In this document: one piece after another, positions 40,307 to 40,525 of the stretch
How positions within the stretch are numbered: position 1 is the first letter of the stretch
Layout: each line of letters opens with the position of its first letter
Assembly: GCA_031269685.1 (NCBI GenBank)
Contig: JAISYU010000103.1
Coordinates: 1-40,637, forward strand
Direction of reading: 5' to 3'
DNA: 40,637 nucleotides
Source: Dysgonamonadaceae bacterium
GTDB lineage: Bacteria; Bacteroidota; Bacteroidia; Bacteroidales; Azobacteroidaceae
The notes under the pieces: model-generated
The model's input: only the letters and a program-made list of their open reading frames with translations
Database searches by the model: none
What the model was told of the DNA's origin: nothing
Program-made: the position numbers and the translations under genes

Positions 40307-40525
40307 ATGATGCAAACGAACACATATTGTCCCGTAAGGAGGATGCCGAATACGGAAAAGTACTTTATAACGTCAGGCATTGTCGGTTCTAAATTGGAGC
40401 ATGATTTGGATATGTCAAATATTTTGTTAACACACACACACACACACACACACACACACACACACACACACACACACTTGCACCTATTCATACCTTATTA
40501 TATTACGCGCAGGTACGCGAGATAA
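40307..40525 (+). CDS. Leader ORF D, 72 aa with a (HT)n tract (hypothetical)
   Basis: The frame starts MMQTNTYCPVRRMPNTEKY, then SGIVGSKLEHDLDMSNILLT, then about eight HT repeats from the CA microsatellite, and ends LHLFIPYYITRRYAR and TAA. The first part resembles leader ORF B (RRMIPDTKKY, SGIVRSK), and the second part matches leader ORF A (SNILLT, HT tract, FIPYYI, final AR and stop). It therefore links both types. No known domain or signal peptide is present. Translation is likely only if the conserved frame is selected; an RNA element remains possible. Confidence 0.4.
   Translation: MMQTNTYCPVRRMPNTEKYFITSGIVGSKLEHDLDMSNILLTHTHTHTHTHTHTHTHLHLFIPYYITRRYAR

Follow-up and report, generated by a model that had tools for sequence, protein, structure and literature searches.

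Leader open reading frames with simple-repeat tracts as candidate phase switches for unrelated genes in a relative of a termite-gut protist symbiont

The 40,637-nucleotide contig JAISYU010000103.1 of a Dysgonamonadaceae bacterium (assembly GCA_031269685.1), termed the window here, carries four short leader open reading frames (ORFs), designated A to D, of a kind that is found in many copies throughout the genome. Their comparison suggests that these translated leaders probably serve as slipped-strand phase switches for the downstream genes, which often appear to encode secreted proteins. Transcription would start from a TAnnTTTG promoter and translation would begin almost immediately, the ribosome reading a short, frame-conserved head and then, in most copies, a simple repeat, (AC)n in this genome and poly-C in that of a sister species, whose slippage would set the frame beyond it. 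One of the three phases would usually lead through a tail and an array of 21-bp units almost as far as the gene's start codon, and the other phases would stop early. Read-through would turn the downstream gene on, either by translational coupling (re-initiation) or because polarity or RNA structure is kept away, and an early stop would turn it off. Where the tract is missing, as in B, the leader would be read without interruption and expression would be constitutive. The frame would be kept before the tract, would be free to drift right behind it (any phase could be regained through the tract), and would not shift inside the array. The sequences show the family, its anatomy, the conserved frame of the head, the dependence of ORF extent on tract phase and the specific placing of the tracts; from these we infer both the slippage in cells and its effect on expression.

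The window is contig C101 of a genome of 2.23 Mb in 125 contigs (G000), which was compared with the genome of the sister species (G049); the genome analyses used the stretches around the matches. The source belongs to the GTDB genus Azobacteroides, that is, to symbionts of termite-gut protists, and a relative in this genus carries plasmid NC_011562.1 of Candidatus Azobacteroides pseudotrichonymphae at 100%, which places the window in a relative of that termite-protist symbiont.

Leader D is located on the plus strand at the end of the contig. Its promoter −7 box TATCTTTG (40290..40297), which recurs in other copies, is situated 9 nt ahead of the ATG at 40307, and the ORF (40307-40525, 72 codons) reads MMQTNTYCPVRRMPNTEKYFITSGIVGSKLEHDLDMSNILL, followed by HT repeats. 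It is composed of a type-1 head of 41 codons (40307..40429), whose frame is under selection and which has 31 equal-length, stop-free copies, an (AC)24 tract (40430..40477; Tandem Repeats Finder, TRF) that is read as HT and is a candidate slippage switch, and a tail (40478..40637) in common with other copies, which the contig end truncates before any array and gene. On the minus strand, leader B has the −7 box TAATTTTG (10180..10187), 8 nt ahead of the ATG at 10171, and an ORF of 159 codons (9692..10171) reading MNSNIVYINRRMIPDTKKYSTLSGIVRSKSKN..., with its head at 10171-10076 and no simple tract. This ORF crosses its 21-bp array (9751..9961; TRF), which encodes ETSGC(A/I)P in the leader frame, and its stop lies 12 nt upstream of a gene for a protein of 220 amino acids without known family (9017..9679), referred to as family X. 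The parts of the switch are incomplete in both leaders: D has a tract with its target beyond the contig end, and B has head and array without a tract. A preliminary description had noted the head that B and D have in common, and its residues, the promoter spacing and the DNA words AAAGTACT and GGCATTGTC at matching places were all found as described. The direct match between the two is weak (E 0.14 in a one-genome search); intermediate copies bridge them, above all C26:11419 (MNSNIVYSNRRMIPDTKKYSTQSGIVGSKSEHDLVMSNI), which matches D at 4e-10 and B at 9e-14, so that B and D are homologous and their resemblance is no chance match. The D head also holds TAAGGAGGATG at 40333-40345 (codons 10-13), an anti-Shine-Dalgarno-like match immediately before Met13; signals of the Shine-Dalgarno type are little used in Bacteroidota, which makes this internal match unusual.

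The preliminary description knew two copies of the head and proposed a leader family in which one head is joined to exchangeable repeat bodies. This concept was borne out and can be widened, as promoters and downstream genes are exchangeable too and a profile search with the head gave about 55 matching places in G000. The pattern GTTAA(CA)n occurs at 42 sites in this genome, compared with none for the reversed pattern used as control. Many copies are located at contig ends and point outward, a pattern that assembly breaks at the repeats would produce, and most are truncated by a contig end. The elements typically follow one another as promoter TAnnTTTG, a gap of 8-9 nt, the ATG of the head ORF, the simple repeat, the tail, the array of 21-bp units and the gene; the distance from box to ATG is 8-9 nt in most G000 copies and about 23 nt in G049. 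The stretch from head start to tract is 129 nt long in 31/31 type-1 copies, 81 or 87 nt in type 2, which includes window A, and 132 nt in the copy on C112; all of these are multiples of three. One head was found with two promoter types, and varied first 11 codons precede one core, indicating that the modules recombine. Directly behind the head follows (AC)9-39 or C9-16. The HT stretch of D, taken originally as an ordinary repeat body, is a frame-setting simple-sequence tract between head and body, which is replaced by poly-C in the sister species. There, an amplified head of its own (MA.EYFYSSNSKL..., 41 matches) precedes poly-C where G000 has (AC)n; runs of 12 C are found mostly at leaders in G049 and are absent from G000. 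Family X proteins and BspA-like leucine-rich repeat (LRR) proteins are among the products of the downstream genes, as are proteins whose starts resemble signal peptides. The head itself has no match in Pfam or Rfam, and the window has no Rfam match.

Selection on the frame of the heads was assessed with substitution tests on a tree for G000 and G049, with the shifted frames as controls. In the ATG frame, stops are avoided in G000 (1 reconstructed vs 6.8 expected, P 0.0055) as well as in G049 (0 vs 5.1, P 0.004), and substitutions are in excess at third codon positions (81/180 in G000 and 48/100 in G049, with P 0.0007 reported for D-type heads); the two shifted frames display neither stop avoidance nor third-position excess. 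Frameshifts and stops are absent from the 31 same-length heads, no present-day type-1 copy in the set having a stop, and indels number zero in the head and are many in the tail behind the tract. The frame is therefore conserved, and not the DNA alone, which answers the question of frequent frameshifts raised in the preliminary description. The strong synonymous excess that it had envisaged is not supported, omega being 0.90 (P 0.20) for the D-type heads of G000 and 0.74 (P 0.03) for those of G049. Taken together with the lack of synonymous preference in the arrays (see below), this weak constraint leads us to suggest that translation of the head matters more than the sequence of its peptide.

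The D head is species-specific and not distributed across the Bacteroidales, no convincing match having been obtained in 57 relatives; matches in a Clostridia metagenome-assembled genome and in Petromonas rest on a single short pattern and were taken as chance. Across species the leaders are unrelated in sequence and have a common start with Y, H or F at codon 7, which is present in 17/27 dissimilar leaders (P 1e-8) and in 11/18 (P 2e-5) when the relatives, i.e. other species, are considered alone. This short N-terminal pattern is all that is common. These data bear on the alternative that the family is repetitive DNA scattered through the genome: an element that carries a promoter, has been spread by recombination or transposition, and is open in frame only incidentally. 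The many copies, the high DNA identity, the mosaic of promoters and heads, the weak omega and two decayed heads, on C100 (frameshift) and C53 (stop), neither with a sense gene downstream, would all suit such an element. However, we consider it unlikely, as stop avoidance and third-position excess are confined to the ATG frame, the head is devoid of indels, and the unrelated leaders of other species have the same start pattern.

The reach of the leader frame was examined in leaders with and without a tract. Of the poly-C loci of G049 that possess an array, 19/19 have one phase, and no more than one, in which the tail is open, and the array is open in the tail-open phase in 19/19 compared with 22/38 in the other phases (P 0.0004); as the G049 tails share descent, the array is the independent part of this test. 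In tract-free leaders, the frame is open through the array in 29/31 vs 42/62 for the other frames (Fisher P 0.004), a figure somewhat favoured by the choice of leaders, which were selected by position with the array-reaching one preferred where several candidates existed. A stop within −25..+15 of the gene start is found in 15/26 of the tract-free leader frames vs 11/52 of the others (P 0.0016). On G000 contigs C95, C105, C112, C113 and C50, one tract phase ends −17 to +8 nt from the gene start, and on C80 an ATGA overlap was read by eye. Tract lengths vary between paralogous copies, and with the exception of window A a change of tract length alters the outcome of the frame in silico. Two G049 loci, L241 and L249, are assembled in the read-through phase, the latter fused in frame to a secreted-type protein.

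The arrays in front of family X genes nearly all have a period of exactly 21 bp or a multiple of it, with units unrelated between loci. Indels are rare even among units that diverge by 30-45%, and 44/51 arrays have none; 21 bp correspond to seven codons and also to two helical turns. This regularity is an argument for the alternative that the leader ORF is a gene with a functional product, giving small, possibly phase-variable proteins with a common head and 7-residue repeats, together with the long open frames formed by leader and array (159 codons in B, 299 in L210 and 335 in L175). Amino-acid selection on the arrays was nevertheless rejected, since their leader frame has no synonymous excess (ratio of nonsynonymous to synonymous changes 0.75, vs 1.09 and 0.72 in the other frames); moreover, the units are unrelated between loci, a Pfam match is lacking and some arrays are located outside the leader ORF, so that this alternative is judged distinctly improbable. 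The arrays were also considered as hairpins and this was discarded: inverted repeats are common and not universal, the mean stem being 4.4 vs 3.4 in shuffled sequences, and RNA folding gave a mean z of −1.2 with 16% of units below P 0.05. Family X, with about 220 amino acids, has about 25 matches in G000 and 24 in G049, occurs also in other families of the class, and has no match in Pfam, NCBIfam or PDB; a structure model of low confidence (predicted local distance difference test score 52) has a helical N-terminal and a beta C-terminal half. A BspA-type LRR protein with 69-bp internal DNA repeats (8203-8952) adjoins the family X gene behind leader B.

Since a short ORF containing serial HT or P codons separates the promoter from the structural gene, and a hairpin TTTCGGGAAGTCCCGAAA was seen by eye in the G049 tail, the leaders could also recall a classical attenuation leader in which stalling at His/Thr or Pro codons selects between RNA structures, but this is very unlikely, because the two species have different codons at the same place (HT in G000, PPPP in G049, none in B), tract length varies, many leaders are tract-free, and the downstream genes examined have no role in amino-acid biosynthesis, nor does the window match Rfam.

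Window elements A and C are further leaders of the class of B and D. Leader A, on the minus strand, consists of the −7 box TACCTTTG (1354..1361), a type-2 head (MTSIAISKVFSGNTSNNLAVSNILL; 1259..1333, reading from 1333), an (AC)16 tract (1226..1258; TRF) and a 42-bp array with a palindromic unit (832..1100; TRF), followed by the gene of a membrane protein (2..814) truncated at the contig end. Leader C, on the plus strand, has the same box TACCTTTG (17867..17874) 8 nt ahead of its ATG, the ORF MIKKVIHSAVNISLSNADYFAGSNKLLICIG (17883..17978), a 42-bp array (17987..18337; TRF) and the second family X paralogue of the window (18347..19015), with 29% identity to the first. Elsewhere in the window, neighbouring large minus-strand proteins (23157-34752) have similar C-termini of the type V.VYS.SG...KKIVK, which resemble type IX secretion sorting domains.

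Several observations weigh against the leaders being phase switches. No tract phase of A crosses its array to the gene, and leader C stops ahead of its array. All six usable (AC)n loci of G000 and most poly-C loci of G049 are assembled in a stopping phase. The intact head at C12:5421 apparently has no sense gene behind it; this copy (L077) is a B-type leader with a 313-codon open frame of ETSGCIP-like repeats. The null for stops in the neighbourhood of the start codon is soft, since the typical array already ends 40-130 nt upstream of the gene. Amino-acid constraint is weak in the heads and absent in the arrays, and the evidence consists of genome sequence, in which tract lengths are assembly consensus values. 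On balance, the phase-switch interpretation is still the one that we favour.

Arrays of this kind also occur in further species. Family X genes of relatives in the genus are preceded by period-21 arrays of unrelated units, which occupy the region from roughly 300 to 40 nt upstream of the ATG, and 21-bp arrays likewise accompany some family X genes outside this family of the class. A genus-wide and possibly class-wide cis-regulatory architecture of Bacteroidia is a serious possibility, which we put forward more tentatively than the switch itself: a near-leaderless promoter, a translated head with a conserved start, an interchangeable slippage tract and a nearly indel-free, locus-unique 21-nt array might jointly control dozens of unrelated genes as a stochastic switchboard. 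If the leaders are indeed phase switches, at least 40 phase-variable genes in these symbionts of termite-gut protists would derive from one amplified leader module, where other systems equip each gene with a tract, and the switchboards of two related species would have been built with different heads and tracts. It would extend phase variation by simple repeats to a lineage for which the literature searched holds no description, and would provide a test case for upstream-frame translation gating a downstream gene. A puzzle of its own, and one that lends itself to direct testing, is the fixed 21-bp period of arrays that are unrelated in sequence and nearly free of indels. The arrangement as such was not found described in the literature searched, which left out most subscription journals.

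Among known systems, the leader peptides of attenuated operons resemble these leaders in that a short ORF, in which one or two codons are repeated in series, lies right behind a promoter, but the leaders described here, known from their sequence, have no common stalling codons and unrelated target genes. The TAACTGA repeats of Beggiatoaceae (PMC4679880) likewise form many intergenic direct-repeat sets in one genome for which a post-transcriptional role was proposed, with one common 7-bp unit in contrast to the locus-specific 21-bp units behind a leader ORF. Translational coupling through overlapping or adjacent stop and start codons (PMC6728339, PMC12548453) finds a parallel in leader stops that often lie within −25..+15 nt of the gene start and in some cases overlap it, whereas the upstream ORF is here a leader with a repeat body and not a gene of shared operon function, and the coupling itself is presumed. 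Simple-sequence contingency loci undergo phase variation by slipped-strand mispairing, e.g. in Neisseria, Haemophilus, Campylobacter and Helicobacter (PMC3711429, PMC5084427). They have in common with the leaders a tract of hypermutable type inside an ORF near its start, a phase that sets the extent of translation and many loci per genome, and several of the downstream genes here look secreted; unlike them, the tract is placed in a separate leader ORF that is amplified before unrelated genes, a 21-bp array follows, the downstream gene is provided with a separate start codon, and switching is proposed. By analogy, the leader system would unite the working of simple-repeat contingency loci with that of translational coupling.
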